Below are positions 8,345-24,185 of a stretch of 32,487 nucleotides of DNA, piece after piece. A program made the position numbers and the translations under genes. Where the stretch lies: contig NZ_JAKFHA010000002.1 in assembly GCF_021502675.1 (NCBI RefSeq), positions 79,173 to 111,659 of the forward strand, written 5' to 3'. The number at the start of each line of letters is the position of its first letter. The stretch's first letter is position 1. The notes under the pieces are model-generated. The model did no database searches. It was not told the DNA's origin and saw only the letters and a program-made list of their open reading frames with translations. The stretch is from Yinghuangia soli. Its GTDB lineage: Bacteria > Actinomycetota > Actinomycetes > Streptomycetales > Streptomycetaceae.

Positions 8345-8378
8345 GGTGTCCTCCACGTCCTCCACCGAGCGGCGCGAA

Positions 8379-8395
8379 TGTCGCATATATCGACA
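8379..8395. promoter_or_regulatory. 17-bp near-palindrome in the ligD/ku divergent promoter
   Basis: TGTCG-N7-CGACA with an AT-rich centre (CATATAT) lies between the divergent ligD and ku starts. It is the most AT-rich spot nearby, with GATACT at 8401-8406 as a possible ku -10. It has the size and place of a shared operator. Confidence 0.5.
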
Positions 8396-8441
8396 AATGG
8401 GATACTCAAGGCTACTCCGGGGACCGACGATCGGAGCACTC

Positions 8442-9506
8442 GTGCGCGCCATCTGGAAAGGGGCGATCAGCTTCGGGCTGGTCAGCATCCCCGTCAAAGT
8501 CGTCTCGGCGATCGGCAGCGAGCACGCGGTCAAGTTCCACCAGATGCACCGGGCGGACCAGGGCCGGGTGCGCTACCGCAAGGTGTGCGAACTGGACGGC
8601 GAGGAGCTCGCCGCGGGCGACATCGTGCGCGGCTACGAGGCGGCCGACGGCCGGGTCGCGGTGGTGACCGACGAGGACCTGTCCGAGCTGCCGCTGCCGA
8701 CCTCGCGGAGCATCGAGGTGCACGGCTTCCTGGCCGGCGACGACGTCGACCCGATCCAGCTCGGCAAGCCGTACTACCTGACCCCGGACACCGCGGGCAC
8801 CAAGCCGTACGTGCTGATGCGCGAGGCGCTGCGCCGGTCCGGCAAGGCCGCGGTGGCGAAGCTGGCGATGCGCGGCCACGAGATCCTCGCGCTGGTCCGG
8901 GTGCAGGACGACGTCCTGGTGCTGCACCAGCTCTACTGGCCGGACGAGATCAACTCGACGGACGGAGTGGCGCCCACCGAACGGGTGACCGTCACCGACG
9001 CCGAGCTCGACATGGCCGACACACTGATCGACACGCTCGGCACCGCGGACCTCTCCGCTTTCCACGACGACTACCAGGCCGCGGTGGAGGACATGGTCAC
9101 CGCGAAACTGGACGGCGCGGAGCCGCCCGCGGCCGAAGGCGGGGCCGGCGGGGGCGGCGCCCAGGTCATCGACCTCATGGCCGCGCTGCGGCAGAGCGTC
9201 GCCGAGGCGCAGGGGGCGCGGAAGGCGGTCCGGTCCGCGCCTGCGCCCAAGGGGTCGGACGCGAAGAAGACCGTCTCGCGCTCCGCGAAGGCGACGGCGG
9301 CCGCTCCGGCGCGGAAGTCCACCGCGAAGACCGCGGCGAAATCCGCGGCCAAGGCGCCGGCCAAGAGCACCGCCAAGAGCACCGCCAAATCAGCGGCGAA
9401 GAGCACGGCGGCGGGCTCCGCCAAGGGGGCCGCCAAGCCGGCCGCGAAGAGTACGAAGTCGGCCGCGAAGGCACCCGCGAAGCGGCCCGAGCGGAAGACC
9501 GGCTGA
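8442..9506 (+). CDS. ku: Ku protein, DNA end-binding factor of NHEJ
   Basis: A 354-residue bacterial Ku homodimer subunit that threads onto broken DNA ends and recruits LigD. The start VRAIWKGAISFGLVSIPVKV is the classic Ku N-terminus, and the beta-barrel core runs to about residue 250. The tail (about 260-354) is low complexity, built of repeated KSTAK, SAAK and APAK units. It is very Lys/Ala-rich and resembles histone H1-like tails known to aid DNA binding in actinobacterial Ku proteins. The GTG at 8442 has GGAG six bases upstream. It is followed three bases after the stop by a perfect 14-bp palindrome. The divergent ligD neighbour confirms the role. Confidence 0.95.
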   Translation: MRAIWKGAISFGLVSIPVKVVSAIGSEHAVKFHQMHRADQGRVRYRKVCELDGEELAAGDIVRGYEAADGRVAVVTDEDLSELPLPTSRSIEVHGFLAGDDVDPIQLGKPYYLTPDTAGTKPYVLMREALRRSGKAAVAKLAMRGHEILALVRVQDDVLVLHQLYWPDEINSTDGVAPTERVTVTDAELDMADTLIDTLGTADLSAFHDDYQAAVEDMVTAKLDGAEPPAAEGGAGGGGAQVIDLMAALRQSVAEAQGARKAVRSAPAPKGSDAKKTVSRSAKATAAAPARKSTAKTAAKSAAKAPAKSTAKSTAKSAAKSTAAGSAKGAAKPAAKSTKSAAKAPAKRPERKTG

Positions 9507-11407: not shown

Positions 11408-11547
11408 TCACTCAACGTCAGGAAACATCACCGGTACGGGTGTTGCCTTGACCGGCCGGTTCGCGGTCTCGTGTACAGGGGCAACTGCGGCTGGTAGATT
11501 CCGGCTTGCGGAACAGCGTTCCAGAACTCCGGCTGCGTGGGGGCGCG

Positions 11548-12618
11548 ATGGACGGGCACGACGACGACCGCGGCGGTACGGCGGCCACCGCCGATCCGCA
11601 CTACCGGGCCCTCGCCCTGCAGTCCCGCTGCGATGCGGTGAACACGCTGGGCGCCGGCGAGGCCCGGGCCGCGATCGCCCGCGGCATCGCCCGGGTCCGT
11701 GCCGAGGCGGCCGCCAGCATCGCCTTCATCGGCCCCGACGTCCGCCTCGTGGTGCTGCCCGAGTACCTGTTCACCGGCTTCCCGATGGGCGACACCGTGC
11801 CGGGCTGGGCGGCCAAGGCCGCGCTGGCCCCGGACGGACCCGAGTACGAGGCGCTCGGCGCGATCGCCCGCGACCTCGGCATCCACCTCGCGGGCAACGC
11901 CTACGAGACGGACCGGCACTTCCCCGGGCTGTACTTCCAGGCGTCGTTCGTGGTCGGCCCGTCCGGCGACGTGGTGCTGCGCTACCGCCGCCTGCACTCG
12001 ATGTTCGCGCCCACGCCGTACGACGTGTGGGACCGCTACCTCGACGTCTACGGCATCGACGGCGTACTCCCGGTGGCCCGCACGCCGCTCGGCAACCTCG
12101 CCGCGGTCGCCTCCGAGGAGATCCTCTACCCGGAACTGGCCCGCGCGCTGATGATGCGCGGCGCCGAAGTGCTGTGCCACAGCACGTCCGAGGCGGGCAG
12201 CCCGCGCCCGACCGCGAAGTCCGTGGCCCGCCTGGCCCGGGCCGCCGAGAACCTCGCGTACGTCGTCTCGGCGAACACCGCGGGCATCACCGGCATCGCG
12301 ATCCCGGGCAACTCGACCGACGGCATGTCGCAGATCGTCGACTTCACCGGCAGCGTGCTCGCCGAGGCCGGACCCGGCGAGAGCATGGTCGCGCACGCCG
12401 AACTGGACCTGGCCGCACTGCGCCGGCACCGCCGCCGCCCCGGCATGGGAAACCTGCCGGCCCGCGGCAAGCCGGGCTTATGGGCCGCCGAATACGCCCG
12501 TGCCGAGGGCGAGCGCCCCAACGGCCTGGCGTCCGGCGCACCGCCGGACCGCGCCTGGTTCGCGCGGCGCCAGGCCGAGACGCTGGAACGCCTGCTCAAG
12601 GCCGGGGTGATCACGTGA
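11548..12618 (+). CDS. Nitrilase-superfamily protein with altered catalytic residues
   Basis: A 356-residue carbon-nitrogen hydrolase fold protein. Nitrilase/amidase enzymes use a Glu-Lys-Cys triad. Here the Glu is kept (Glu72 in VVLPEYLFTGFP). The Lys position in the usual YRKLH motif is Arg148 (LRYRRLHSMF). The nucleophile position of the usual CYExxFPE motif is Ser189 (AVASEEILYPEL). The flanking motifs are well kept, so the fold is surely intact, but ordinary Cys-dependent hydrolysis is not expected. It may be a diverged enzyme, a binding protein or a scaffold. The ATG at 11548 has GGGGG five bases upstream; an in-frame TTG at 11506 is less likely. It leads a unit with the aldehyde dehydrogenase ten bases downstream. 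Confidence 0.85.
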   Translation: MDGHDDDRGGTAATADPHYRALALQSRCDAVNTLGAGEARAAIARGIARVRAEAAASIAFIGPDVRLVVLPEYLFTGFPMGDTVPGWAAKAALAPDGPEYEALGAIARDLGIHLAGNAYETDRHFPGLYFQASFVVGPSGDVVLRYRRLHSMFAPTPYDVWDRYLDVYGIDGVLPVARTPLGNLAAVASEEILYPELARALMMRGAEVLCHSTSEAGSPRPTAKSVARLARAAENLAYVVSANTAGITGIAIPGNSTDGMSQIVDFTGSVLAEAGPGESMVAHAELDLAALRRHRRRPGMGNLPARGKPGLWAAEYARAEGERPNGLASGAPPDRAWFARRQAETLERLLKAGVIT

Positions 12619-12628
12619 GGGGCCGCAT

Positions 12629-14077
12629 ATGAGCGCCGTCTTCGCCCGGGATGCCGCCTTGCGGGTCCGGGACCCCCGCACCGGCGCCGACGTCCGCGCA
12701 CTGGCCCCGCCCACCCCGGAGGAGTTAGACGCCGAACTCGCCCGGCTGCGGGCCGCCCAGCCCGCCTGGGAGGCGCTCGGTCCGGCCGGGCGGGCCGAGG
12801 CCCTGCGCGCCTGGGCCCAGGAACTTGGGGCAATACAGGGCGAAATGGTCGAGGCGCTGATCGCCGACACCGGCAGGCGCACCGAGTCGGTCATGGAGCT
12901 CCAGGTCCTGCAGAGCGGCATCGCCCGCTGGGCGGCCGCGATCGGCGGCCGGGCCGACGACGACGCGGGTGCGGACACCACCACGTCGCTGCCGTGGATC
13001 GCGGTGCGGTCCGGGGCCCGCCCGTACCCGCTGGTCGCGGTGATCAGCCCGTGGAACTTCCCGCTGCTGCTCGGCACCATCGACCTCGTCCCGGCGCTGG
13101 CCGCGGGCTGCGCGGTGGTGCTCAAGCCGAGCGAGGTCACCCCGCGCTTCCTGGCGCCGCTGCGCCGCAGCCTGGCCGCGGTCCCGGAACTCGCCGCCGT
13201 GGTGGGTCTGGTGGAAGGCGCCGCGGAGGTCGGCGCGGCCCTGGTCGACCGGGTGGACGCGGTCTGCTTCACCGGCTCGGTGCCCACCGGCCGCGCGGTG
13301 GCCGAGCAGGCCGCCCGCGCGTTCGTCCCGGTCCACCTCGAACTGGGCGGCAAGGATCCGGCGATCGTGCTGCAGGGCGCCGACCTGGGACGCGCCGCCT
13401 CGGCGATCCTGTGGGGCGCGACGGCCAACGCCGGGCAGTCGTGCCTGTCCATCGAGCGCGTGTACGTGCACCGCAAGGTCTTCGACGAGTTCACCGGCCT
13501 GCTCTCCGACCGGGCCGCCAAGGTCGGCCTGGCCTGGCCCGACCTGGACGCCGGCCAACTCGGCCCGATCATCGACCCTGCGCAGGCCGGGGTGATCCGC
13601 GCGCACCTGGAAGACGCGTACGCGCAGGGCGCGACCGCGCTCACCGGCGGCGAGGTCGAGGAACTCGGCGGCGGTCTGTGGTGCCGCCCGACCGTGCTCA
13701 CCGCGGTGCACCACGGCATGCGCGTGATGACCGAGGAGACCTTCGGTCCGGTGCTGCCGCTCATGCCGTTCCGCGATGCGGACGACGCGGTGCGGCTCGC
13801 CAACGACACCGACTACGGCCTGTCCGCCGCGGTGTTCGGGCCGGACGAGCACACCGCGATGGCGGTCGCGCGGCGGCTGGAGGCGGGCGCGGTGAGCATC
13901 GACGACGCCGGCCTGACGGCGTTCGTGCACGAAGGCGAGAAGCAGTCGTTCGGACGCTCGGGCCTGGGCGCCTCGCGGATGGGCCCGGCGTCGATCCGGC
14001 GCTTCCTGCGCCGCCAGGCGTTCCTCGTCAACCGCGGCCCGGTCGACGACCCGTGGTGGTGGGACGCCGGCGACTGA
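12629..14077 (+). CDS. NAD(P)-dependent aldehyde dehydrogenase
   Basis: A 482-residue ALDH-superfamily enzyme that oxidises an aldehyde to an acid. Landmarks are cofactor-binding ISPWNFPLLL and KPSE, general base Glu238 in LELGGKDP, nucleophile Cys272 in GQSCLSIERVYV, and MTEETFGPVLP. Length is normal. The ATG at 12629 follows GAGGGG by about six bases and lies ten bases after the nitrilase-like stop, so they are one transcript. The substrate is not readable. The next-door nitrilase fold would fit amide, nitrile or oxime chemistry, but that neighbour looks altered in its active site. Confidence 0.93.
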   Translation: MSAVFARDAALRVRDPRTGADVRALAPPTPEELDAELARLRAAQPAWEALGPAGRAEALRAWAQELGAIQGEMVEALIADTGRRTESVMELQVLQSGIARWAAAIGGRADDDAGADTTTSLPWIAVRSGARPYPLVAVISPWNFPLLLGTIDLVPALAAGCAVVLKPSEVTPRFLAPLRRSLAAVPELAAVVGLVEGAAEVGAALVDRVDAVCFTGSVPTGRAVAEQAARAFVPVHLELGGKDPAIVLQGADLGRAASAILWGATANAGQSCLSIERVYVHRKVFDEFTGLLSDRAAKVGLAWPDLDAGQLGPIIDPAQAGVIRAHLEDAYAQGATALTGGEVEELGGGLWCRPTVLTAVHHGMRVMTEETFGPVLPLMPFRDADDAVRLANDTDYGLSAAVFGPDEHTAMAVARRLEAGAVSIDDAGLTAFVHEGEKQSFGRSGLGASRMGPASIRRFLRRQAFLVNRGPVDDPWWWDAGD

Positions 14078-14144
14078 CCGCTCGGGACAGAGCACACCGA
14101 AGCAGCCCGAAAGACAGAAGACGCAGAGAGGTTCGGGACCGCGC

Positions 14145-14588
14145 ATGTCCATCAAGGAAGAGATGCCGCTGCTCGCCCGGCACGAGGGCGAGTGGGAAGG
14201 CGAGTACATCTGGGTCGATGCGGACGGCACCGTGACCGACCGGCACGCCACGCACCTGGCCTGCACCTTCCCGGAGTCGGGGGAGTGGCCGTACTACCAG
14301 ATCAACACCTACACGTGGCCGGACGGCCGCACCGAGGTCATCCACTTCCCGGCGACCTACAAGGACCGCAACATCTGGTTCGACACGGACCGCATCAACG
14401 GCCACGCGTGGGAGGTCGACGAGCGCACGATCTGCCTGACCTGGACGCGCAAGGACGACCCCGGCGGGTTCTTCTACGAGATGATCCAACTGGACGAGAC
14501 CGGGACGAAGCGCTCGCGCGTGTGGCAGTGGTTCGAGGGCGGCGTGTGCACCAAGCGCACCCTCATCGACGAACACCGCGTCGCCTGA
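14145..14588 (+). CDS. Small lipocalin-like/DUF3598-type protein
   Basis: A 147-residue protein with alternating beta-strand patterns rich in Trp, Tyr and Phe (HEGEWEGEYIWVDADG, WPYYQINTYTWPDG, GGFFYEMIQLDETG). It has no signal peptide or membrane segment. This looks like a small beta-barrel of the calycin/lipocalin kind. Start and middle resemble DUF3598-like proteins, but the assignment is tentative. It could bind a hydrophobic ligand or the product of the two enzymes before it. It starts 67 bases after the aldehyde dehydrogenase, with GAGAGG upstream, and is probably the last gene of that unit. Confidence 0.7.
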   Translation: MSIKEEMPLLARHEGEWEGEYIWVDADGTVTDRHATHLACTFPESGEWPYYQINTYTWPDGRTEVIHFPATYKDRNIWFDTDRINGHAWEVDERTICLTWTRKDDPGGFFYEMIQLDETGTKRSRVWQWFEGGVCTKRTLIDEHRVA

Positions 14589-14667: not shown

Positions 14668-16200
14668 ATGACGACGACCCTCAGCGCCGGTGCCAACGTT
14701 CCCGTCCACCACGGGCAGCTCACCTTCGCGATCCGCTGGGACGCGGGCCCGCAGGGCTACGGCGCCAATGCCGTGGACGGGTCCGCCTTGATGGTCACCG
14801 CGGCCGGAAAGGTGCGCTCGGACGCCGACTTCGTCTTCTACAACCAGCCGCACAACCACAACGGCTCGGTCACGCACATGATCGGGGAGCCGGGCGCCGA
14901 GTTCATCCGGGTGCAGTCGGCCGGCCTTCCCGAGGAGATCGAGCGCGTCGTCATCGCCGCGTCCGTGCACGCGGGCACGTTCGGGTCGGTGCCCGGACTG
15001 ACGCTCGACGTCACCGACGCCTCCGGTGAGGTGCTGGCGACCTACCCGGTGGAGGCGCGCGGCACCGAGACGGTGATGGTGCTGGGCGAGCTCTACCGCC
15101 GCCAAGGCGACTGGAAGTTCCGGGCGATCGGGCAGGGCTACGACTCGGGCCTGGCCGGTCTGGCCACCGACTACGGCGTGTCCATCGCCGAGGACGACGC
15201 CGCCGAGACGGCTCCGCAGGCCGCGGCACCGGCCGCCGCCCCGCCCGTGGCCGCGCCGCCCGCGTTCGCCCCGCCTGCGTTCGCGCCGCCGGCCACGCCG
15301 CCCGGCGTCCTCCCGGTGCAGCCGCCGGCGCCGGCCGGCGGATGGACGCCGCCGCCGTACGCCGAGGACCCGACCATGCGGCTGCCCAACCCGGCACCCG
15401 TCACCGCCGCGGCACCGCAGGCCGCGCCCGCGGCCCCGGCCGCCGACCCGGACGTCGCCGGACTCCCGCCGCAGATGGGCGCGATGGTCTCGCTGCGCAA
15501 GGAGACCGTGCGGGTCACGTTGGAGAAGAAGGGCATCAGCGGAGTCCGGGCCCGCGTCGCGGTGGTCCTGGACCGCTCCGGCTCGATGAAGGCGCTCTAC
15601 AACGGCGGCACGGTCGGCCGGCTCATCGAGCGGATGGCGCCGATCGCCGCCAAGCTGGACACCGACGGCTCGCTGGACGCCTGGATCTTCGCCGACGACT
15701 TCTCCCGCATGCCGTCGCTGCGCGTGCCGGACCTGGCGCGCTGGATCGACGGCAACGTCTTCATCATCTCCAAGGGCAACCAACTGCCGCCGCTGCCGGG
15801 CGGTGGCAGCCGGCACCCCGACCCGTACCCGCACGTGCGCGGCGGCAACAACGAGCCGCTCGTCATCCGCGACATCCTGGACTTCTACGCGGCGCAGCCC
15901 GGCGACCCGGTGCTGGTCATCTTCTACTCGGACGGCGGCGTCAACCGCAGCCGGCAGATCAGCGAACTCCTCATGGAGGCCTCCGGGAAGCCGATCTTCT
16001 GGCAGTTCGTGGGCCTCGGCCGCGCCGAGTACGGCATCCTCGAGCGCTTCGACACGATGCCCGGGCGCGTGGTCGACAACGCCGGGTTCTTCTGCGTCGA
16101 CGATTTCGACAAGGTCTCCGACGCCGAGCTGTACGACCGGCTGCTGGGCGAGTTCCCGCAGTGGCTGGCCGCCGCCCGGGCGCACGGCATCCTGCGCTGA
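14668..16200 (+). CDS. TerD-family protein fused to a VWA domain (TerF-like)
   Basis: A 510-residue cytoplasmic protein. Residues 1-178 are a TerD domain (LSAGANVPV at the start, DADFVFYNQP, QGDWKFRAIGQGYDSGLAGL), a calcium-binding fold linked to tellurite and stress responses. About 185-270 is a Pro/Ala-rich linker. About 285-510 is a von Willebrand A-type domain with MIDAS start Asp302 (LDRSGSMKAL) and a later IFYSDGGVNRS. The order TerD-linker-VWA is that of TerF-like proteins. It stands alone here, with no other ter genes. The ATG at 14668 has no clear SD; CACACT ends eight bases upstream, and a leaderless mRNA is possible. A terminator hairpin follows. Confidence 0.88.
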   Translation: MTTTLSAGANVPVHHGQLTFAIRWDAGPQGYGANAVDGSALMVTAAGKVRSDADFVFYNQPHNHNGSVTHMIGEPGAEFIRVQSAGLPEEIERVVIAASVHAGTFGSVPGLTLDVTDASGEVLATYPVEARGTETVMVLGELYRRQGDWKFRAIGQGYDSGLAGLATDYGVSIAEDDAAETAPQAAAPAAAPPVAAPPAFAPPAFAPPATPPGVLPVQPPAPAGGWTPPPYAEDPTMRLPNPAPVTAAAPQAAPAAPAADPDVAGLPPQMGAMVSLRKETVRVTLEKKGISGVRARVAVVLDRSGSMKALYNGGTVGRLIERMAPIAAKLDTDGSLDAWIFADDFSRMPSLRVPDLARWIDGNVFIISKGNQLPPLPGGGSRHPDPYPHVRGGNNEPLVIRDILDFYAAQPGDPVLVIFYSDGGVNRSRQISELLMEASGKPIFWQFVGLGRAEYGILERFDTMPGRVVDNAGFFCVDDFDKVSDAELYDRLLGEFPQWLAAARAHGILR

Positions 16201-16317: not shown

Positions 16318-16402
16318 GCGAAACAACCGGCCGTTCCGCCGGTAGGCACGCGCACCACCGAACCACCGCACGCAAGTTGCCCGCGCGACGGAGGTGCTTC
16401 CG

Positions 16403-17014
16403 GTGACCCGGCTGCGGATCACGTACGGCCCGTGGGGCGAGACCCTGGACGAACTGTGCACCGCCGGAGCCGCCGCCGAAGCGGCCGGCGCCGAGGTGCT
16501 GTGGGTCCCCGAACTGCACCGCAGCGCCACCGTCACAGCCGCCGCCCTTGCCGCGCGCACGAGTTCGGCGCGCATCGGCACCGGAATCGCGCAAAGCGGC
16601 CGTACCTGGAACGAGTTCGACGTCGTCGTGTCGGCCCGCTGTTCGATCGACGACGACCGCGCGGCCGTCCGCCGCCGGGCCGCCGGACTGGTCGGGTTCT
16701 GCGCCTCGGTGCGCACCTACGCCGATCTCTTCGCGGCCCATGGTCTGTCCGCCGCACAGGAAGAGGTGATACGACAGTTCAGAGCCGGTGCGGGCGCCGA
16801 CGATCTCGCCGCCGCGGTACCGGCTCCGATGGTCGACGCCCTGACGCTGTCCGGGCCGGCCGCCGAGGTCCGGGAACGCGTGCTCGCCTACGAAGGGATC
16901 GCCGGCACCGTCAAGCTCACCCCGCCCACCCACGGACTGCCCGCCCCGGAGATCCGCGCCGCCCAGCAACGCATCCTCGCCCTGATCGCCGAGCTCACCG
17001 GGGAGCGCTCATGA
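16403..17014 (+). CDS. LLM-class flavin-dependent oxidoreductase, internally deleted
   Basis: A 203-residue ORF made of the two ends of a luciferase-like (F420/FMN) oxidoreductase that is normally about 330-360 residues. The first 60 residues give the N-terminal barrel strands (AGAEVLWVPELHRS ... RIGTGIA). From QSGRTWNEFDVVV onward it matches the C-terminal third (DDDRAAVRRRAA, VRTYADLFAAHGL, LSGPAAEV). The middle of the barrel, where cofactor and substrate bind, is missing. The frame is kept across the join near 16588-16596. GTG at 16403 has GGAGG eight bases upstream. It overlaps the next gene as ATGA. Catalysis is unlikely. It may be a natural deletion or a collapsed assembly. Confidence 0.75.
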   Translation: MTRLRITYGPWGETLDELCTAGAAAEAAGAEVLWVPELHRSATVTAAALAARTSSARIGTGIAQSGRTWNEFDVVVSARCSIDDDRAAVRRRAAGLVGFCASVRTYADLFAAHGLSAAQEEVIRQFRAGAGADDLAAAVPAPMVDALTLSGPAAEVRERVLAYEGIAGTVKLTPPTHGLPAPEIRAAQQRILALIAELTGERS

Positions 17015-18240
17015 CATCCGCGCGCAGGCCGCTCGAAGACGTCCGCATCATCGCCGTCGAGCAGTACGGGGCCGGCCCGTTCGGCTCGCTGAACCTGGCC
17101 GACCTGGGCGCCGAGGTGGTCAAGGTCGAGGACCCGGGGTCGGGCGGCGACGTGAGCCGCTACGTGCCGCCGTTCGCCGAGGGCGAGGACTCGCTCTTCT
17201 TCGAGACGTTCAACCGCAACAAACGCAGCCTGAGCCTCGATCTCGCCAACCCCGAGGGCCGCGCGGTGTTCGAGGACCTGGTGCGCGGCGCCGACGCCGT
17301 CTACTCCAACCTGCGCGGCGACGTCCCGGAGAAGATCGGCATCACGTACGCGCAGCTCAAGCACCTCAACCCGGCGATCGTGTGCTGCTCGCTGACCGGC
17401 TTCGGGATGACCGGGCCGCGGCGCACCGAGCCCGGCTACGACTACATCCTGCAGGGCCTGGCCGGCTGGATGGAACTGACCGGCGACCCGGACGGCCCGC
17501 CCACGAAGTCCGGCCTGTCGGTCGTCGACTACTCGGGCGGCTTCGTGGCGGCGATCTCGCTGCTCGCCGGGCTGCACGCGGCCCGGCGCGACGGCGTCGG
17601 CCTGGACTGCGACGTCAGCCTGTACGACACCGCGATCGGGATGCTGGCGTACGTGGGGGTCTGGCACCTCAACGCCGCCTACCGGCCCGCCCGCACCCGC
17701 AACTCGGCGCACCCGTCGATGGTGCCCTTCCAGAACTTCGCGACGAAGGACGGCTGGATCGTGGTGGGCTGTGCGAAGGAGAAGTTCTGGCAGCGCCTCG
17801 CCGCCGTCGTCGGCCGCCCCGAGTGGGGCGAACCCGATGGCAGATACGGCACGTTCGCCCGGAGATCCGAACACGCCGAGGAGCTGCTCGGGCAGCTCGG
17901 CGGCATCTTCCGGTCCCGCACGTCGGCGGAGTGGCTGGCCGAACTGGGCCCGGCCGGGGTGCCCTGCGCGCCGGTCAACTCGGTGGCCGAGGCGCTCGCC
18001 GACCCGCACGCCGAGGCCCGCGGGCTGCTGGTCGAGACCGGGCATCCGCATTACGGCACGCTGCGGAACCTGGCCTCGCCGGTGCGCGTCGGGGATCTGC
18101 CGCCGAAGTACCGGCGGGCGCCGCGGCGCGGCGAGGACCAGGCCTATGTGCTCTGCGACTTGCTCGGGTACGACGCCGACCGGATAGCCGCGCTGGCCGA
18201 AGGCGGCGCGTTCGGGGCCGCGGCGAGGGAGCGGGCATGA
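17011..18240 (+). CDS. Family III CoA-transferase (CaiB/BaiF type)
   Basis: A 409-residue enzyme that moves CoA from one acyl-CoA to another carboxylic acid, the usual activating step of such operons. It shows the family N-terminus (PLEDVRIIAVEQYGAGPFGS, LADLGAEVVKVEDPG), NRNKRSLSLDL, SLTGFGMTGP and the nucleophile Asp173 in SVVDYSGG. Length is normal. It overlaps the LLM fragment before it and the MmgE/PrpD gene after it by four bases each, so expression is coupled. The acid it activates cannot be read. Itaconate-, mesaconate- or branched-acid-like substrates are suggested by the CitE-like lyase later in the operon. Confidence 0.93.
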   Translation: MTSARRPLEDVRIIAVEQYGAGPFGSLNLADLGAEVVKVEDPGSGGDVSRYVPPFAEGEDSLFFETFNRNKRSLSLDLANPEGRAVFEDLVRGADAVYSNLRGDVPEKIGITYAQLKHLNPAIVCCSLTGFGMTGPRRTEPGYDYILQGLAGWMELTGDPDGPPTKSGLSVVDYSGGFVAAISLLAGLHAARRDGVGLDCDVSLYDTAIGMLAYVGVWHLNAAYRPARTRNSAHPSMVPFQNFATKDGWIVVGCAKEKFWQRLAAVVGRPEWGEPDGRYGTFARRSEHAEELLGQLGGIFRSRTSAEWLAELGPAGVPCAPVNSVAEALADPHAEARGLLVETGHPHYGTLRNLASPVRVGDLPPKYRRAPRRGEDQAYVLCDLLGYDADRIAALAEGGAFGAAARERA

Positions 18241-19613
18241 GCATCGCGACCCGCTTTGCGCTGTGGGGCCTCGGGCTTGGGAACGACAACACCCCCGACG
18301 AAGTCCGCGATGCGGCCTGCCGGCACCTTCTGGACGGGGTGGGCAACGCGGTGGCCGCGGTCCGGCTGGGCGCCGCGGAGCCCGCGCTCGCGGTGGCCGC
18401 CGCGCTGGGCGGCCCGCGCAAGGCGTCCGTGATCGGCTCGTCCGGTCCGCGGATCTCCGCACCGGCCGCCGCGCTGGCCAACGGCACGCTCGTGCACGCC
18501 CTCGATTTCGACGACACGCATCCGGGCGGCCTGGTGCACGCCACCGCCCCGGTGCTGCCGGCCGCGTTCGCGGTCGGCCAGGAGATGCGGGCGTCCGGCT
18601 CCGAAGTGCTGCTGGCCGCGGTCGCCGGAATGGAGGCAGTGTGCCGCATCGCGGCCGCGGCGCCGCATGCGTTCCATGCCCGCGGGCTGCACGCGACCGG
18701 CATGGCCGGGGTCTTCGCGGCGGCGCTCACCAGTGCGCGGCTGATGCGCCTGGATGTCGCCCGTACGGTCAATGCGCTGGGCATCGCGGGTAGTTCGGCG
18801 GGCGGTCTGCTCGAGTTCCTCAACACCGGGTCGTCCACCAAGCAGTTGCATCCCGGCATGGCGGCGGCCAACGGCATCCTCGCGGCCCGGCTGGCCGCGG
18901 CCGGGGCGACCGGCCCGGACACGGTGTTCGAGGGGGAGTTCGGCTTCTACCGTGCGCATGCCGACCGGACGCTGAGCCCGCATCAGCTGCTCGGCGGGCT
19001 CGGCGAGCGCTGGGAGCTGCTGGATCTCGTGGTCAAGCCGTATCCGTGCTGCCAGCTGATCCATGCGTCGCTCAACGCGGGTGCGGCCGTGGTGGAGCGG
19101 ATGGCCGAGGCCGGCCTGCAGGCCGCGGACATCGAGTCGATCAAGGCCACGGTGCCGAAGGAGGCGCTGCCGCTGGTGTGCGCGCCGGACAAGGCGTACC
19201 CGCGGACCGTGTACGAGGCGAAGTTCTCGCTGGCCTGGTCGCTGGCCGCGATGCTGACCGACGGATCGGTGGGCGTGGACACCTACTCGGAAGGCTGCAC
19301 GCGGCGGACCCAGCTGAGCACGCTCGCGCAGCGGGTGCGGTTCGTCACCGCACGCGGGAGCGGCCCGGCCGCCGCCGAGCCGGGGCGGCTGACCGTGCGC
19401 TTCCGCGGCGGCCGCCAACTGCGGGTCGAGGAACCCGCGGCAAAGGCAGTGACGGACACCGCGCTGATGGCGAAGTTCCATGCGAACACCGGCGGCATCA
19501 CCCCGGAGTCCCAGCAGTTGGCCGCCCAGCTGCGCGCGCTGGGCACGGTCCGGGTTCTCGGACCGCTGCTCGACCTGACCGCCGCGGTGGCCGCCCGGAA
19601 GGAGGCCGGGTGA
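18237..19613 (+). CDS. MmgE/PrpD family protein
   Basis: A 458-residue member of the MmgE/PrpD family, which includes 2-methylcitrate dehydratase, cis-aconitate decarboxylase and iminodisuccinate epimerase. It has the helical N-terminal domain with ALDFDDTHPGGLVHATAPVLPA, and the C-terminal part with LVVKPYPCCQLIHASLNA and KFSLAWSLAAML. It is full length. The family acts on small carboxylated, often tricarboxylic, substrates. That fits an operon handling CoA esters of a branched or dicarboxylic acid. Four-base overlap upstream; its TGA and the next ATG share one base (TGATG). Confidence 0.92.
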   Translation: MSIATRFALWGLGLGNDNTPDEVRDAACRHLLDGVGNAVAAVRLGAAEPALAVAAALGGPRKASVIGSSGPRISAPAAALANGTLVHALDFDDTHPGGLVHATAPVLPAAFAVGQEMRASGSEVLLAAVAGMEAVCRIAAAAPHAFHARGLHATGMAGVFAAALTSARLMRLDVARTVNALGIAGSSAGGLLEFLNTGSSTKQLHPGMAAANGILAARLAAAGATGPDTVFEGEFGFYRAHADRTLSPHQLLGGLGERWELLDLVVKPYPCCQLIHASLNAGAAVVERMAEAGLQAADIESIKATVPKEALPLVCAPDKAYPRTVYEAKFSLAWSLAAMLTDGSVGVDTYSEGCTRRTQLSTLAQRVRFVTARGSGPAAAEPGRLTVRFRGGRQLRVEEPAAKAVTDTALMAKFHANTGGITPESQQLAAQLRALGTVRVLGPLLDLTAAVAARKEAG

Positions 19614-19786
19614 TGGCGTACGAGCCGATCCGGCCCGCCGAGTTCCCGTGGTTCCGGTACGACGGCTGCACCTTCTCGCTGGGCCTGATGCGCAAGCTGC
19701 CGGGCAGGCGGACCGAGGCGGTGCTGTCCGGGCACTCGGCGTCCGAGTACGACTCCGAGGCCGGGCGCACGGCGGTCGCTTCATGA
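19613..19786 (+). CDS. N-terminal fragment of a RidA/YjgF-like protein
   Basis: A 57-residue ORF, FRYDGCTFSLGL ... AVLSGHSASEYDSEAGR. It resembles the start of RidA-family proteins found in CoA-catabolic operons, which normally continue for another 70 or more residues. The rest is absent: the ORF stops right after AGRTAVAS inside the next gene's start (ATGA). Translation signals at both ends are intact, so a short peptide may still be made. No continuation is seen in other frames, because the next gene starts cleanly. Confidence 0.55.
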   Translation: MAYEPIRPAEFPWFRYDGCTFSLGLMRKLPGRRTEAVLSGHSASEYDSEAGRTAVAS

Positions 19787-20301
19787 GCCTGCCGTTCGAC
19801 GACGTGCGCAAACTGGTCGGGCGTACCGCGGTCTACACCGCCCCGGAGGAGCTGGGCCGGGCCCTGGTCCGGCAGTTCGCGCTGGGGACCGGCGACGACA
19901 ACCCGCTGTACTCGGATGCGGACCTCGCGAAGGCGTGGGGCCACGACGACGTGGTCGTGCCGCCCACGCTCATCTGCGATACGAACCAGTACACGGGGCT
20001 GCTGCCGGACGCCGACGGATTCCCCGGGCATTCGTGGGGCATCGAGATCCCCGGCACCCGCAAGATCCGCGGCGGGAACGCTTACACGTTCCACCGGCCG
20101 GTGCACCCCGGCGACGTGGTGACCGCGCACTGGACGCTGACCGGCGTGAAGGAGCGCACCAACGCGGCCGGCCGGGCGATGCTCATCGTCACCTCGGTGG
20201 TCCGCTACACGAACCAGCACGGCGACGCTCTGGCGGACAACGAGGAAACCGTCATCTGGGCCGAACTCCCGTCCGCGCCGAGCCCGGAGGGGCCGTCGTG
20301 A
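19783..20301 (+). CDS. FAS1-like/MaoC-type hotdog dehydratase subunit
   Basis: A 172-residue single hotdog-fold protein of the MaoC-like N-terminal dehydratase type (PF13452-like): FALGTGDDNPLYSD, VVVPPTLICDTNQ, GGNAYTFHRPVHPGDVV. These proteins pair with a second hotdog that carries the Asp/His active site. In this one the His position of the D-x4-H motif is Tyr (DDNPLY). It is therefore probably the structural, substrate-pocket half of a heteromeric enoyl-CoA hydratase like ChsH1-ChsH2. The expected catalytic partner is the next ORF, which is truncated. Starts by ATGA overlap with the RidA-like fragment. Confidence 0.85.
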   Translation: MSLPFDDVRKLVGRTAVYTAPEELGRALVRQFALGTGDDNPLYSDADLAKAWGHDDVVVPPTLICDTNQYTGLLPDADGFPGHSWGIEIPGTRKIRGGNAYTFHRPVHPGDVVTAHWTLTGVKERTNAAGRAMLIVTSVVRYTNQHGDALADNEETVIWAELPSAPSPEGPS

Positions 20302-20332
20302 GCGGGCCGCCGAACAGGGCCTGCCCGCACCG

Positions 20333-20593
20333 GTGGTGGACGGCCAGGTATTCGGTGCCCTGCCGGCCGAGCAACTTCAGGACTGGCTCGGGCCGGGCAC
20401 GCGCCTGGCCACGCTGCACTTCAGATTCCGCGAACTGGTCTTCGTCGGCGAAGAAGTGCGGTGCACCGGCCGGGTCACCGCGATCGAGGGGGAACTAGTG
20501 ACCGTCGTCCAGCAGATCGCCGTCGTGGGGCCGGACGCGCGCGTCGCGGTCGCCCCGGCGGGCGCGACCCTGACCGTGCGGGAGCGGCCATGA
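20333..20593 (+). CDS. MaoC-type hydratase, N-terminally truncated
   Basis: The readable protein (86 residues from GTG 20333) is the C-terminal half of a MaoC hotdog: LPAPVVDGQVFGAL, LATLHFRFRELVFVGEEVRCTGRV. The same frame extends upstream to about 20300 with ERAAEQG. This should sit just after the catalytic D-x4-H motif, but that motif and the first 50 or so residues are gone. A GTG at 20298, where a normal start is expected after the previous stop, is in a different frame. A deletion with frame loss near 20298-20310 explains this. No SD precedes 20333. The partner hotdog lacks the His, so hydration may be lost. Confidence 0.65.
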   Translation: MVDGQVFGALPAEQLQDWLGPGTRLATLHFRFRELVFVGEEVRCTGRVTAIEGELVTVVQQIAVVGPDARVAVAPAGATLTVRERP

Positions 20594-21747
20594 CCGTCGC
20601 GATCGTGGGAGTGGCCGAGTCCGACCTCGGCGTCACCGGACGCTCGATCCTCGGGCTCCAGACCCAGGGCATCACCCGAGCCCTGGCCGATGCGGGACTC
20701 GCGCTCGCGGACGTCGACGGGCTGGCCACCGCGGGGGTGGCCCGCTTCTCGGCGACGCAGCTGGCGGAGTACCTGGGCATCGAGCCCGCCTGGACCGACT
20801 CCACCTTCGCGGGCGGCAGCGCGTTCGAGATGTACGTGGCCCGCGCGGTGCAGGCGATCGATGCCGGGCAGTGCACGACCGCGGTGATCTCGTACGGCTC
20901 GAACCAGCGCTCGGCCCGGTCCCGCAAGCTCGGCGGGAACGTCGACGCGCACACGCCCGAGGCGCAGTTCGAGGTGCCGTACGGGCCGCTCTACCCGATC
21001 TCCTACTACGCGATGGTCGCGCAGAAGTACCTGCACGCCTACGGTGCGAAGCGCGACAGCCTCGCCGAGATCGCCGTCGCCGCCCGCGAGTGGGCGCTGC
21101 TCAACCCGGCCGCGTTCCGGCACGGCGCGGGCCCGCTGACCGTCGACGACGTGCTCTCCGCCGACCAGGTCGCCTCGCCGCTCGGCACGCTGGACTGCTG
21201 CCTGGTGACCGACGGCGGCGGCGCGATCGTGCTGACCTCGCTCGACCGGGCCCGCGACCTGCGCGCCGACCCGGTGGTGGTGCTGGGTTACGGGGAGTCC
21301 ACGACCAATTCCGGGATGGGGGCTGTGGATAACTTGCTGCGGCCTGGCTCGTTCGACTCCGCCGCCCGGGCCTACCGGATGGCCGGACTCGGCCCGGCCG
21401 ACGTGGACGTGGCGGAGGTCTACGACTCCTTCACCATCACCGCGCTGCTCAGTCTGGAGGCGCTCGGCTTCTGCGCGCCCGGAGAGGGCGCCGACTTCGT
21501 CGCGGACGGCCGGCTGCGGCCCGGCGGAGCGCTGCCGTTCAACACCAGCGGCGGCGGTCTGTCGTACAACCATCCGGGCATGTACGGGCTGTTGCTGCTG
21601 GTGGAAGCGGTGCGGCAACTGCGCGGCGAGTGCGGGGACCGCCAAGTGGCGGATCCTGCGGTGGCCTTGGCTCATGGCACCGGCGGCATCTTCTCGACCC
21701 ATGCCACAGTGCTCCTGGGGCGGGACGGACGAGGCGAGTGGGGATGA
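20590..21747 (+). CDS. Thiolase-fold protein of the lipid-transfer/retro-aldolase (Ltp2-like) type
   Basis: A 385-residue thiolase-superfamily protein. It has the N-terminal VAIVGVAESDLG, DVDGLATAG, VAEVYDSFTITALLSLEALGFC and NTSGGGLSYNHPGMYG. The nucleophilic Cys of degradative thiolases is not present at the expected place (FAGGSAFEM). It also sits directly before a DUF35 gene. Both points match SCP2-thiolase-like proteins such as Ltp2, which work with a DUF35 partner as retro-aldolases on beta-hydroxyacyl-CoA. ATGA overlap with the truncated hydratase upstream and with DUF35 downstream. Substrate unknown. Confidence 0.85.
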   Translation: MTVAIVGVAESDLGVTGRSILGLQTQGITRALADAGLALADVDGLATAGVARFSATQLAEYLGIEPAWTDSTFAGGSAFEMYVARAVQAIDAGQCTTAVISYGSNQRSARSRKLGGNVDAHTPEAQFEVPYGPLYPISYYAMVAQKYLHAYGAKRDSLAEIAVAAREWALLNPAAFRHGAGPLTVDDVLSADQVASPLGTLDCCLVTDGGGAIVLTSLDRARDLRADPVVVLGYGESTTNSGMGAVDNLLRPGSFDSAARAYRMAGLGPADVDVAEVYDSFTITALLSLEALGFCAPGEGADFVADGRLRPGGALPFNTSGGGLSYNHPGMYGLLLLVEAVRQLRGECGDRQVADPAVALAHGTGGIFSTHATVLLGRDGRGEWG

Positions 21748-22169
21748 TGGAGTCCACTGATACGTACGAGGTCCCGCCTCCCGACGAGGTGACCGGCCCG
21801 TGGTGGGACGCCACCCGGGAGCGCCGCCTGGTGGTGCAGCGATGCGCGGACTGCGGGCACCGGCAGCACTATCCCCGGGCGTTGTGCACAGGCTGTGGAA
21901 AACTCTCCGGGGAATTCGCCGAAGTCACCGGGCGTGGCCGGGTGGACACATTCTCGGTGGTGCACCGGGCACCGCGCGGCGGCCTCGAAGTCCCTTATGT
22001 CCTGGCACGCGTGCGGTTGGCCGAAGGGCCGGTGCTGGTCACGAACATCGTCGGCTGCCCGCCCGGGGACGTGGTCTGCGATCTGCCCGTGGTCGTCGAC
22101 TGGCGGCCGCTGCCGGACGGCCGCGCCCTGCCCGTGTTCCGTCCCGACCCGTCGGCGCGATCGGTGTGA
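21744..22169 (+). CDS. DUF35 Zn-ribbon/OB-fold protein, partner of the thiolase-like protein
   Basis: A 141-residue protein with a rubredoxin-like zinc ribbon, CADCGHRQHYPRALCTGCG (about residues 37-55). An OB-fold follows (VDTFSVVHRAPRGG, VPYVLARVRLAEGP, VVVDW). DUF35 proteins bind thiolase-fold enzymes and carry the acyl-CoA; in steroid side-chain loss the equivalent is the C-terminal domain of ChsH2, which binds Ltp2. Here it is a separate gene. It overlaps the thiolase-like gene by ATGA, consistent with a fixed complex. Confidence 0.9.
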   Translation: MMESTDTYEVPPPDEVTGPWWDATRERRLVVQRCADCGHRQHYPRALCTGCGKLSGEFAEVTGRGRVDTFSVVHRAPRGGLEVPYVLARVRLAEGPVLVTNIVGCPPGDVVCDLPVVVDWRPLPDGRALPVFRPDPSARSV

Positions 22170-22176
22170 GGTTCCG

Positions 22177-23343
22177 GTGGATTTCGAACTGAGCGACGAG
22201 CAAAAGCTGTTCCGCAGCACGCTGCGCGACTTCGTGCACAAGGAAATCGACCCGGTCGCCGCCGAATGGGAGCGTACCGGGCGCTATCCCACCGAAATCG
22301 TCGCCACGATGCGCTCGTTGGGCCTCTTCGGGCTCACCGTGCCCGAGGAGTACGGCGGCCTGGCCGTCGACATGGTGTCCTTCGCGCTGGTCTTCGAGGA
22401 GATCTCGCGCGGCTGGATGGGCGTGGCCGGCATCCTCGGCTCGCACTCCCTGGCCTGCTGGATGATCGCCCGGCACGGCACCGAGGAGCAGCGCGCGCAC
22501 TACCTGCCGCGGCTGGCCGCCGGCGAATGGCGCAGCGGCATCGCGCTGACCGAACCGGATGCGGGCACCGACCTCCAGGGCATCCGCACCACCGCGCGCC
22601 GCGAGGGCGACACGTACGTCGTGGACGGTGCGAAGACGTGGATCACCAACGCCCGGCACGCGAACGTCCTGCCGGTCCTGGTGAAGACCGATCCGTCCGC
22701 GGTCCCGGCGCACCGCGGCATGAGCGTGCTGCTGATCGACACCGACACCCCCGGCTTCGAGGTGCTGCGCGACCTGCCCAAGCTCGGCTACAAGGGCACC
22801 GAGTCCTGCGAGTTGCTGCTGACCGGGGTGCGGGTGCCGGCCGACCAGCTGCTCGGCGGCGTCGAAGGCGTCGGCATGAAGCAGGCGCTGTCCGGGCTGG
22901 AGACCGGCCGCATCAACGTGGCGGCCCGGGCGGTCGGGGTGGCCCAGCGGGCGTACGACGAGGCGCTCGCTTATGCGCGGCAGCGCGAGGCTTTCGGGCA
23001 GCCGATCAGCTCGTTCCAGGCGATCCAGCTGAAGCTTGCCGACATGGCGGCGAACCTGCAGGCCGCGCGCCTGATGGTCTATTGGGCAGCGTCGCGCGCG
23101 GATGCCGGGAAGCGCGTCGACATGGAGTCGGGCATGGCCAAGCTCCTGGCCTCGGAGACCGCGCTGACCAACTCGCTGGACGCGATGCGCATCCACGGGG
23201 GCTACGGCTACTCGCAGGAGTTCGTGGTCGAACGCCTCTACCGCGACGCCCCGTTGATGGCCATCGGCGAAGGCACCAACGACATTCTCCGGACCGTCAT
23301 CGCGAAGTCCCTGGTGGCGGGCGTCGAAGCGATCGGAGGCTGA
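22177..23343 (+). CDS. Acyl-CoA dehydrogenase
   Basis: A 388-residue FAD enzyme that introduces an alpha-beta double bond into an acyl-CoA. Landmarks are FELSDEQKLF at the start, ALTEPDAGTDLQ and KTWITNA (flavin contacts), QREAFGQPISSFQAIQ, and IHGGYGYSQEF. The catalytic base is Glu365 in IGEGTNDILR. Length is that of short-chain and branched-chain family members. GTG at 22177 follows GAGG by about six bases and lies seven bases after the DUF35 stop. It would supply the enoyl-CoA for the hotdog hydratase pair. Confidence 0.95.
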   Translation: MDFELSDEQKLFRSTLRDFVHKEIDPVAAEWERTGRYPTEIVATMRSLGLFGLTVPEEYGGLAVDMVSFALVFEEISRGWMGVAGILGSHSLACWMIARHGTEEQRAHYLPRLAAGEWRSGIALTEPDAGTDLQGIRTTARREGDTYVVDGAKTWITNARHANVLPVLVKTDPSAVPAHRGMSVLLIDTDTPGFEVLRDLPKLGYKGTESCELLLTGVRVPADQLLGGVEGVGMKQALSGLETGRINVAARAVGVAQRAYDEALAYARQREAFGQPISSFQAIQLKLADMAANLQAARLMVYWAASRADAGKRVDMESGMAKLLASETALTNSLDAMRIHGGYGYSQEFVVERLYRDAPLMAIGEGTNDILRTVIAKSLVAGVEAIGG

Positions 23344-23348
23344 GCGGC

Positions 23349-24185
23349 ATGAGTGCGCGCAGCTACCTCTATGTGCCGGGGGACGCCCCCGGCAAGCTTG
23401 CGAAGGCGTTCGACCGGGGAGCGGACGCGCTCATCGTCGACCTGGAGGACGCCGTCGCACCGTCCGCCAAGGAGGCCGCGCGGCGCAACGTGGCCGCCTG
23501 GCTGGCGGACGCCCGGCCCGGCGACACCGAGATCTGGGTGCGCGTGAACGCACCCAGCGACGTGCGCAAGGCCGATGTCGCGGCGGTGGCGGTCAGCCCG
23601 CTGCTGACCGGGATATTCCTGCCCCGGGTCGAGCACCAGTGGCCGATCATCCGGGTGGTCCGGCAGCTGCGGAAGCTGCGTTCGGAGGCCGTGCTCTGCC
23701 CGATGATCGAGACCGCGACGGCGCTGTCCCACATGGAGCTGATCGGCAGCGGGCCGCGGGTCGCCCGGCTGCAGCTCGGCGAGGTGGACCTGTGCGCCGA
23801 GCTCGGCGTCACGCCCGGCGACGACGGGCGCGAACTCCTGTATGTGCGGACCCGGTTGGTGATCGACTCGATGGCGGCCGGGATCGGACCGCCGCTCGCC
23901 CCGGTGGACACCGACTTCCGCGACCTGGACCGGCTGCGGACCACCAGCGAGGAGTTCAAGCGCATGGGGTACCGCGGGCGTGCCTGCATCCATCCGGCGC
24001 AAGTGCCGGTGGTCAACGAGGCGTTCACGCCCACGCAGGAGGAACTGGCCCGGGCCTGGGACATCGTCGAGCGGCACGGCGCAGCGGTCGCGGCGGGCAA
24101 CGGCGTCTGCCTGGATGCGGAAGGACGCATGGTCGACGAGGCGGTCGTCCGCAGGGCCCGCTCGGTGCTGGACCTGCGGCGGTGA
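23349..24185 (+). CDS. CitE-like HpcH/HpaI-family CoA-ester lyase
   Basis: A 278-residue TIM-barrel lyase of the citrate lyase beta/malyl-CoA lyase family: SYLYVPGDAPGKLAKAFDRGADALIVDLEDAV at the start (Arg and Asp-Glu metal site), WVRVNAP, CPMIETATAL, GEVDLCAELG and CIHPAQVPVVNEAF. It cleaves a beta-hydroxy acyl-CoA such as malyl- or citramalyl-CoA. With the CoA-transferase and hydratase it mirrors the itaconate route (transferase, hydratase, citramalyl-CoA lyase). It starts six bases after the acyl-CoA dehydrogenase. Confidence 0.92.
   Translation: MSARSYLYVPGDAPGKLAKAFDRGADALIVDLEDAVAPSAKEAARRNVAAWLADARPGDTEIWVRVNAPSDVRKADVAAVAVSPLLTGIFLPRVEHQWPIIRVVRQLRKLRSEAVLCPMIETATALSHMELIGSGPRVARLQLGEVDLCAELGVTPGDDGRELLYVRTRLVIDSMAAGIGPPLAPVDTDFRDLDRLRTTSEEFKRMGYRGRACIHPAQVPVVNEAFTPTQEELARAWDIVERHGAAVAAGNGVCLDAEGRMVDEAVVRRARSVLDLRR

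Follow-up and report, generated by a model that had tools for sequence, protein, structure and literature searches.

The DNA analysed here, called the window, is a stretch of 32,487 nucleotides from Yinghuangia soli (contig C12, positions 79173-111659) in a draft assembly of 9.7 Mb and 91 contigs (genome G000). It carries one copy of an apparent catabolic operon, which occurs in numerous genera of actinomycetes and combines a predicted thiolase-like aldolase and its DUF35 partner with a putative coenzyme A (CoA) dependent C4-dicarboxylate pathway and a triple-RidA protein. The copy in the window is very probably decaying. Among the papers listed in literature searches of open-licence PubMed Central, no description of the operon was found.

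The operon and its conservation

Genes were called from open reading frames and from Pfam and NCBIfam profile matches. The operon, and a nitrilase-aldehyde dehydrogenase-DUF3598 triad that lies upstream of it and accompanies it, comprise the following features.

11506..12618, + strand: nitrilase-family amidase (CN_hydrolase), 370 residues; Pfam PF00795, 101.7 bits
12629..14077, + strand: aldehyde dehydrogenase (ALDH); best NCBIfam match succinic semialdehyde dehydrogenase, 339.5 bits, under the cut-off of 521
14145..14588, + strand: 147-residue protein without a Pfam match of its own, relative of a DUF3598_N protein; its relative in locus L190 is 52% identical
16394..17014, + strand: remnant of an LLM-class oxidoreductase, 206 residues, about 140 internal codons gone; Bac_luciferase, 64 bits
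17011..18240, + strand: CaiB/BaiF family III CoA-transferase (CaiB); PF02515 (CoA_transf_3), 400.4 bits
18237..19613, + strand: MmgE/PrpD protein (PrpD), in an operon-specific clade by tree; PF03972/PF19305
19613..19786, + strand: triple-RidA (RidA3) remnant of 57 codons, first RidA domain of a protein of about 400 residues in relatives
19783..20301, + strand: MaoC1, FAS1_DH/HadA-like hotdog; PF13452, 70.5 bits; motif GDDNPLY
20303..20593, + strand: MaoC2 remnant, a hotdog that has lost its start codon and its N-terminal motif; PF01575, 20.7 bits, Pfam cut-off 27
20590..21747, + strand: thiolase-like protein (THL) of Ltp2/Sal type; Thiolase_C_1, 197 bits; Thiolase_N under cut-off
21744..22169, + strand: DUF35 partner, zinc ribbon (CX2CX10CX2C) and OB fold; zf-ChsH2 PF12172, 48.7 bits; OB_ChsH2_C PF01796, 62.3 bits
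22177..23343, + strand: acyl-CoA dehydrogenase (ACAD); Pfam profile
23349..24185, + strand: HpcH/HpaI (CitE-type) CoA-ester lyase, RipC/Ccl-like; RipC/Ccl model, 161.7 bits, cut-off 375

The named families at 17011-24185 are closely packed, all on the + strand. An earlier note on this DNA had placed an acyl-CoA dehydrogenase, a thiolase, a DUF35 protein, a CoA-transferase, an MmgE/PrpD protein and a CitE lyase there, and the profile matches confirm these assignments. The extent that it gave, 17011-24185, is too short: the 5′-end of the operon lies upstream of 17011, at the LLM gene that starts at 16394, the RidA remnant at 19613-19786 was unlisted, and the triad at 11506-14588 accompanies the operon.

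A class search with the window PrpD covered 394 genomes, 21 of which (including the window's own) match at 1e-70. The window genes were compared by tblastn with stretches from the PrpD-matching and other genomes, and with 80 named-genome loci from a thiolase-alignment scan, counts on which hold among the matches listed. The gene set is collinear across the compared loci, and intact relatives carry up to 11 genes (MaoC3, LLM, CaiB, PrpD, RidA3, MaoC1, MaoC2, THL, DUF35, ACAD and CitE). Among the matches listed, CaiB at a minimum identity of 60% is present in 25 of the 27 loci that have THL of at least 60% and room upstream, so that the co-occurrence analysis proposed in the earlier note finds an association beyond chance. 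PrpD, RidA3, MaoC1, MaoC2 and DUF35 each occur in all 25, ACAD in 23 (one lost to a contig end), CitE and MaoC3 in 21 each, and LLM in 20. Contig-end loci (L074, L088, L104, L105, L108 and L110) are outside the 25, duplicates (L136, L094 and L109) were dropped, and L105 MaoC3 and LLM matches at 26-28% were not counted.

Operon hosts include Thermomonospora, Micromonospora, Nonomuraea, Nocardia, Dactylosporangium, Streptosporangium, Actinomadura, Actinoplanes, Catellatospora and one Nanopelagicales metagenome-assembled genome; the type strains of Nonomuraea sediminis, Thermomonospora echinospora and Actinomadura meyerae have the operon intact. The long operon is also present in metagenome-assembled genomes labelled Saccharospirillum and Ectothiorhodospiraceae (L099 and L107; THL 73% and 64%), through either horizontal transfer or misbinning. 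In loci with THL of 57% or less the gene set was not seen, the one exception being Bordetella hinzii, in which a 55% THL stands beside MaoC3-PrpD-ACAD-CaiB-CitE. Streptomyces-type THL relatives, mostly 45-50% identical and matching at 1e-60 in 124 of 197 genomes of the order (the window's own included), were set aside, there being no operon in the two loci examined (L092 and L093).

A short form of the operon, MaoC3-CaiB-PrpD-ACAD-CitE without the extension, was found in six loci from five sources (two Rhodococcus plasmids and three genomes, one with two copies). Over long and short operons, CaiB is 64-77% and ACAD 66-77% identical. Trees were built for CaiB and ACAD (rows under 80% coverage or 45% identity left out) and for PrpD (the 36% PrpD of L108 left out of tree and alignment), and in each the short forms make up one group nested within the long forms. 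Because of this nesting, the extension was probably lost in the short-form lineages, and the core appears able to stand alone.

On both Rhodococcus plasmids (L069 and L177) the short operon has hydantoinase A/B and amidase genes as neighbours, and L177 has a second PrpD-cyclase-CitE set as well. Loci L087, L095, L097, L101, L108, L109, L112, L113 and L190 have a second PrpD (PrpD2; identity to that of L190, 63-73%) in the vicinity of the operon, accompanied in several of them by a second CaiB or a dihydropyrimidinase-like gene. The window's genome itself has a second cluster (contig C17, 72500-92400; L267), which includes a dihydropyrimidinase-like gene, IclR, CaiB2, PrpD2, CitE, nitrilase, ALDH, DUF3598, a cupin, an Amdase-family protein and an M20 peptidase.

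Decay of the window copy

Four of the 11 operon genes are lost or cut short in the window (MaoC3, LLM, RidA3 and MaoC2), so that the catabolic pathway read from it earlier is not supported as a working one. The window LLM aligns to that of L075 as two pieces, 420 bases apart in L075, indicating an in-frame internal deletion, and the gene at the 3′-end of PrpD retains 57 of the approximately 400 codons of a triple-RidA gene. MaoC2 has no in-frame start before a GTG at 20333; intact MaoC2s align to it only from residue 35-56, and to that of L189 from residues 1-10. The segment YAGATWDWHRxHYD, found in this or a near variant in 16 aligned relatives, is absent. MaoC3 has no match in the window. 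A TerD and vWA-TerF-like gene at 14668-16200 occupies the relatives' MaoC3 place, and DNA alignment shows it to be common to the window and L189. Elsewhere in the window's genome, MaoC3-like matches have 45% identity along the whole protein or, in an 80-residue piece where a contig ends, 51%, and no second close THL was found (next best 42%).

Genome G551, of the same genus, carries both a syntenic region (L189) and an intact operon (L190). L189 has complete genes for PrpD, MaoC2, DUF35 and ACAD, but its LLM, CaiB, RidA3, MaoC1 and THL genes are cut short, its nitrilase gene is split in two, and neither CitE nor MaoC3 has a match there. A MaoC2 break point common to both copies is ruled out by the full-length MaoC2 of L189. 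As read from the two sequences, the damage differs between the window's genome and G551, and since the syntenic copy of G551 lost other parts, the locus appears to be decaying within the genus. No THL matches at 1e-100 in G552, the third genome of this genus. It is very improbable that the gaps arose in assembly and that the living strain has an intact operon: the draft state of the 91-contig genome, the preserved reading frame of the LLM deletion and the absence of the window lesions from L189, with its full-length MaoC2, would suit this, but independent G551 lost other parts at the syntenic place, MaoC3 is absent from the window and L189 with a TerD/TerF-type gene in its place in both, and no N occurs in the sequence of the window, L189 or L190.

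Ratios of nonsynonymous to synonymous substitution (dN/dS) between the window and L189 are 0.05-0.30 for genes that are full length in both (PrpD, ACAD, DUF35, ALDH and the 147-residue protein), with 0.05 for the 147-residue protein and 0.105 for ACAD; the THL part gave 0.09 and the MaoC2 part 0.34. These values imply that most of the divergence accrued under selection and that the damage is comparatively recent. The window copy is a relic with broken genes, and an intact relative is the fitter subject for experiments.

Proposed route of the intact operon

The following steps are drawn from protein families and gene context. The intact operon probably encodes a CoA-dependent C4-dicarboxylate pathway; whether its dicarboxylate comes from a nitrogen-containing precursor is judged about evenly balanced. 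A nitrogen-containing ring or amide would be opened and denitrogenated by LLM, the nitrilase-family amidase and RidA3 as an imine/enamine hydrolase, with a dihydropyrimidinase-like amidohydrolase at the amidase step in some genomes. The alkyl-substituted C4 dicarboxylate released would be isomerised by PrpD, activated to a CoA ester by CaiB and oxidised by ACAD. Hydration would fall to the RipB/Ich-like MaoC3 and a MaoC1-MaoC2 heteromer, and THL-DUF35 would carry out retro-aldol cleavage where a branch forbids thiolysis. Cleavage by CitE would then give acetyl-CoA-type and pyruvate-type products. In the window this route would be broken at LLM, RidA3, MaoC2 and MaoC3. The small branched acid that the earlier note proposed as substrate fits such a route, but the context of the relatives points to a nitrogen-containing ring, possibly with heme or bilins upstream, which it had not considered.

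In heteromeric MaoC hydratases, one subunit bears the catalytic Asp-His motif. MaoC1 has Tyr at the His position of the MaoC motif and is probably the non-catalytic subunit, whereas the MaoC2s of 16 aligned relatives and L189 have WDWHRxH or a near variant, which is missing from the window. As MaoC2 supplies the motif that MaoC1 lacks, a MaoC1-MaoC2 heteromer is plausible in the relatives and would be dead in the window. Both of the paired hotdogs reported earlier are present as MaoC matches, but in this copy they are not a functional pair, since Tyr replaces the His of MaoC1 and the start codon and motif of MaoC2 are gone.

Evidence for a nitrogen-containing precursor comes from genes around the operon. 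A nitrilase orthologue is found in 7 of 394 class genomes at 1e-40, distributed as 6 of the 12 long-operon genomes against 1 of 382 others (G319; Fisher p 1.3e-9, relatedness ignored). The 12 were taken as the same sample (G000, G200, G275, G283, G391, G417, G433, G478, G485, G492, G519 and G539); without the window's genome, the count is 5 of 11 (Fisher p 3.6e-8, relatedness ignored). ALDH lies near the nitrilase in L189, L190, L097, L267, L268, L271, L272 and L273. Dihydropyrimidinase-like genes are near six operon loci (L095, L097, L101, L109, L112 and L113), and a flavin reductase is within about 4 kb of LLM in L106, L112 and L113 and also near L116. Urease and a urea transporter were seen near one locus only, L111, and are given no weight. 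A side observation in the window is a cytosine/purine/allantoin-family permease on the minus strand at 67-1446 (83.5 bits), 10 kb from the nitrilase.

Taken as a whole, the decaying copy together with the route inferred for the intact operon is the best explanation, with moderate confidence, and several observations weigh against it. The nearest solved relatives of LLM are F420-dependent Mer-type reductases (97 bits), not ring-opening monooxygenases. The Fisher tests are uncorrected for relatedness. Only 5 of 25 long loci have the nitrilase within the sequence fetched, and this gene could be part of an adjacent pathway. Two of the 27 THL loci are exceptions, L114 having THL and DUF35 only and L116 having THL, DUF35 and CitE, with THL at 60-62%. 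The AlphaFold model of THL is poor (pLDDT 46) and gives no structural confirmation. Identities to L191, the apparent methylsuccinate/itaconate cluster of C. necator, are 29% for CaiB, 34% for PrpD, 32% for ACAD and 34% for CitE. Purifying selection in the stretches compared with L189 (dN/dS 0.05-0.34) may mean that some genes are still used singly.

Heme-oxygenase neighbours in three lineages suggest, tentatively, that the nitrogen-containing ring could be a tetrapyrrole fragment. In L190, three genes come after LLM on its strand, for a heme oxygenase (184.8 bits), a NuoF-like protein and a ferredoxin (Fer4_15, 59.7 bits), with gaps of 272, 22 and 26 bases (start codons chosen by the analyst). 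In genome G567, the contig of the operon also has, at a distance of about 17 kb, two heme oxygenases with NuoF, a ferredoxin and an ABC transporter of SBP_bac_5 type. In G391, on a contig other than that of the operon, a DUF2470-DUF3598-ALDH-nitrilase set adjoins heme oxygenase-NuoF-ferredoxin-VIT1 and an SBP_bac_5 ABC transporter. Of 12 loci with generic heme oxygenases, 6 have DUF2470 nearby, and the L190 relative of the 147-residue protein is a fusion of DUF3598_N (37.6 bits) to DUF2470 (59.3 bits). As a control, only 1 of the best 30 of 67 NuoF loci in the class sample has an adjoining heme oxygenase, and that one is G391.

It is on this evidence that the operon might mineralise monopyrrolic heme or bilin fragments (alkylmaleimides, hematinic acid or BOX-type lactam acetamides) downstream of heme oxygenase, an alternative that is rather unlikely. 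Against it, heme oxygenase lies beside a NuoF-like protein in only 3 of the 23 operon genomes tested, and 19 of 22 genomes have a heme oxygenase that is mostly unlinked. The nitrilase modules of G319 and G283 are near NMT1/THI5-like transporters, with no heme oxygenase match seen there, and the window matches none of these heme genes except DUF3598. In L232, L235, L236, L244-L250, L252-L256 and L258, the NuoF-like protein has another kind of neighbourhood, which includes a distant thiolase-like gene and frequently DUF35 and a ferredoxin.

Excerpts of two papers describe hematinic acid and maleimides as arising from tetrapyrroles in leaves and sediments (PMC7318184, PMC8669743), and alkylmaleimides and hematinic acid from this source would be natural substrates that fit the whole gene set. 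Slightly more doubtful is the further step that bacteria feed on heme-type tetrapyrroles, beyond taking iron from them, and that the intact operon recovers the carbon at the end of such a pathway. The ring would be opened by a heme oxygenase served by a dedicated ferredoxin and a NuoF-like reductase; LLM, RidA3, the amidase and ALDH would break the bilin into monopyrroles and strip the nitrogen; and CaiB-PrpD-ACAD-MaoC-THL/DUF35-CitE would turn methyl-, vinyl- or propionate-substituted C4 units, which as branched compounds would need a retro-aldol step, into central metabolites. Elsewhere, this end module would receive its maleimides preformed, from the decay of chlorophyll. The literature abstracts treat bacterial heme opening as iron acquisition, and literature searches on heme or bilin carbon recovery turned up no such pathway among the papers listed. 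Should the heme link prove true, the operon would be a candidate for how bacteria of soil and water obtain carbon and nitrogen from what is left of heme and chlorophyll.

Also in the window, at 6491-9506, are LigD primase-polymerase/ligase and Ku genes back to back, a non-homologous end-joining set.

Comparison with known systems

In the Rut pyrimidine pathway, RutA is an LLM protein, RutC a RidA protein and RutF a flavin reductase. The operon resembles it in combining LLM with RidA and, in some operon relatives, in having a flavin reductase and an amidase too. The two differ in that the operon LLM is of another subfamily and CoA-ester enzymes predominate; the RutC model matches RidA3 in three stretches at 84.9 bits, against a cut-off of 169.

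Excerpts of two papers describe a five-gene cluster of itaconate CoA-transferase (Ict), MmgE/PrpD methylsuccinate isomerase (Msi), methylsuccinyl-CoA dehydrogenase (Mcd), itaconyl-CoA hydratase (Ich) and citramalyl-CoA lyase (Ccl), at PA0878-PA0883 in P. aeruginosa and E6A55_22580-22600 in C. necator (PMC12290011, PMC9875883). The CaiB/PrpD/ACAD/hydratase/CitE part of the combination, which the earlier note did not know as a described pathway, is thus published. By class, the operon core of relatives parallels these five enzymes, of which the hydratase (MaoC3) is missing in the window, and could be an actinobacterial methylsuccinate/itaconate pathway whose THL/RidA/LLM extension feeds in methylsuccinate from a larger branched dicarboxylate. 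Agreeing with this are the best NCBIfam matches of CaiB and CitE (dicarboxylate CoA-transferase and RipC/Ccl models), that of L107 MaoC3 (RipB_Ich, 197 bits), and the about equal similarity of CaiB and ACAD between long and short operons. All of these equivalog scores are under cut-off, however, and the RipC model (NF038242) gave nothing above cut-off in 9 genomes, so that the cluster is not placeable by model.

L191, in a genome labelled Cupriavidus necator SHC 2-3, was taken for the C. necator cluster because of its gene content and the signature of its PrpD. Its hydratase-like gene is of another kind (FAS1_DH, 288 residues), and the operon has six extra genes (LLM, RidA3, MaoC1, MaoC2, THL and DUF35). 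In the PrpD tree, operon PrpDs form a supported clade separate from the Msi lineage, with long branches meeting on the Msi side. His87, Asp90, His101, His152, Lys202 and Lys267 are conserved in 36 of 36 aligned rows, so that the His/Lys carboxylate ligands and the equivalent of the catalytic His102 of the isomerase are kept; the second base, Tyr148, is replaced by Phe-His, and Glu91 by Asp. The L191 PrpD has the published HxxE and Tyr-x3-His signature, where operon PrpDs have HxxD and Phe-His. On this signature and the 29-34% identities, equivalence to the C. necator/P. aeruginosa cluster was dropped: judged by sequence, the core is not orthologous to the characterised cluster and is methylsuccinate/itaconate-like by enzyme class, which is as far as the itaconate-type transferase and lyase of the earlier note can be upheld. 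That the core is nevertheless this pathway in actinobacterial form is improbable.

The closest non-actinobacterial core seen is the Burkholderiales cluster MaoC3-PrpD-ACAD-CaiB-CitE (L136/L192, Bordetella hinzii; L176, Caballeronia). It is like the operon in MaoC3 (57-59%), ACAD (55-57%) and CaiB (48-51%), and THL (55%) directly adjoins it in Bordetella, but PrpD (36-37%) and CitE (33-35%) are more distant, and RidA3 and LLM have no match there.

THL and DUF35 are close, among solved proteins, to the retro-aldol complexes Ltp2-ChsH2(DUF35) (6ok1) and Sal-Shy(DUF35) (9myr), as the ChsE/ChsH/Ltp2 logic of the earlier note had anticipated. THL matches the uncharacterised 4u4e (352 bits), then Sal (9myr, 212 bits) and Ltp2 (6ok1, 173 bits), and the best solved match of DUF35 is ChsH2-DUF35 (6ok1_B, 102 bits), with which it shares a Cys4 zinc ribbon. 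By alignment, Phe73 of THL replaces the nucleophilic Cys of 7yvy, and none of 11 aligned operon thiolases has Cys in that stretch, in accordance with the 'non-Cys' thiolase first described. Tyr278 of YDSF aligns with the base Tyr of YDHF (Ltp2) and YDCY (Sal). The systems thus share a Cys-free thiolase fold, a base Tyr in YDxF/Y and a DUF35 partner, from which a retro-aldol function is predicted for THL-DUF35. They differ in Ser280, which stands for the His/Cys of YDHF/YDCY (at the Cys304 position of Sal), and in the SY[NC]HPG motif with His328 that THL retains; Tyr326 is invariant and near the Tyr344 stretch of Ltp2, where an alignment gap is ambiguous.

These matches, with a weak one of MaoC1 to ChsH1/ChsH2 (24 bits, against 31 for the best other MaoC), could suggest a steroid-like or branched fatty-acid side-chain pathway, with a hydrophobic acyl-CoA as the substrate of ACAD-MaoC-THL-DUF35 and only an incidental presence of the remaining genes. 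This is very unlikely: CaiB stands beside THL in 25 of 27 testable loci, with PrpD and RidA3 in all 25, ACAD is present in short operons without THL, and an AMP-binding CoA ligase is clustered in only 13 of 28 loci. The operon also differs from the steroid aldolase systems in its dicarboxylate-type partners, and no steroid genes were recognised.

The pathway of the benzoylsuccinyl-CoA thiolase BbsAB (7pxp) also employs an ACAD and a CaiB-type transferase on a substituted succinate. BbsAB is, like THL-DUF35, a pair of thiolase-like and DUF35 proteins. The operon pair differs from it in the BbsB equivalog score of THL (137 bits, cut-off 750), in having YDSF where BbsB has HDAF, and in the DUF35 match to 7pxp of only 26 bits.

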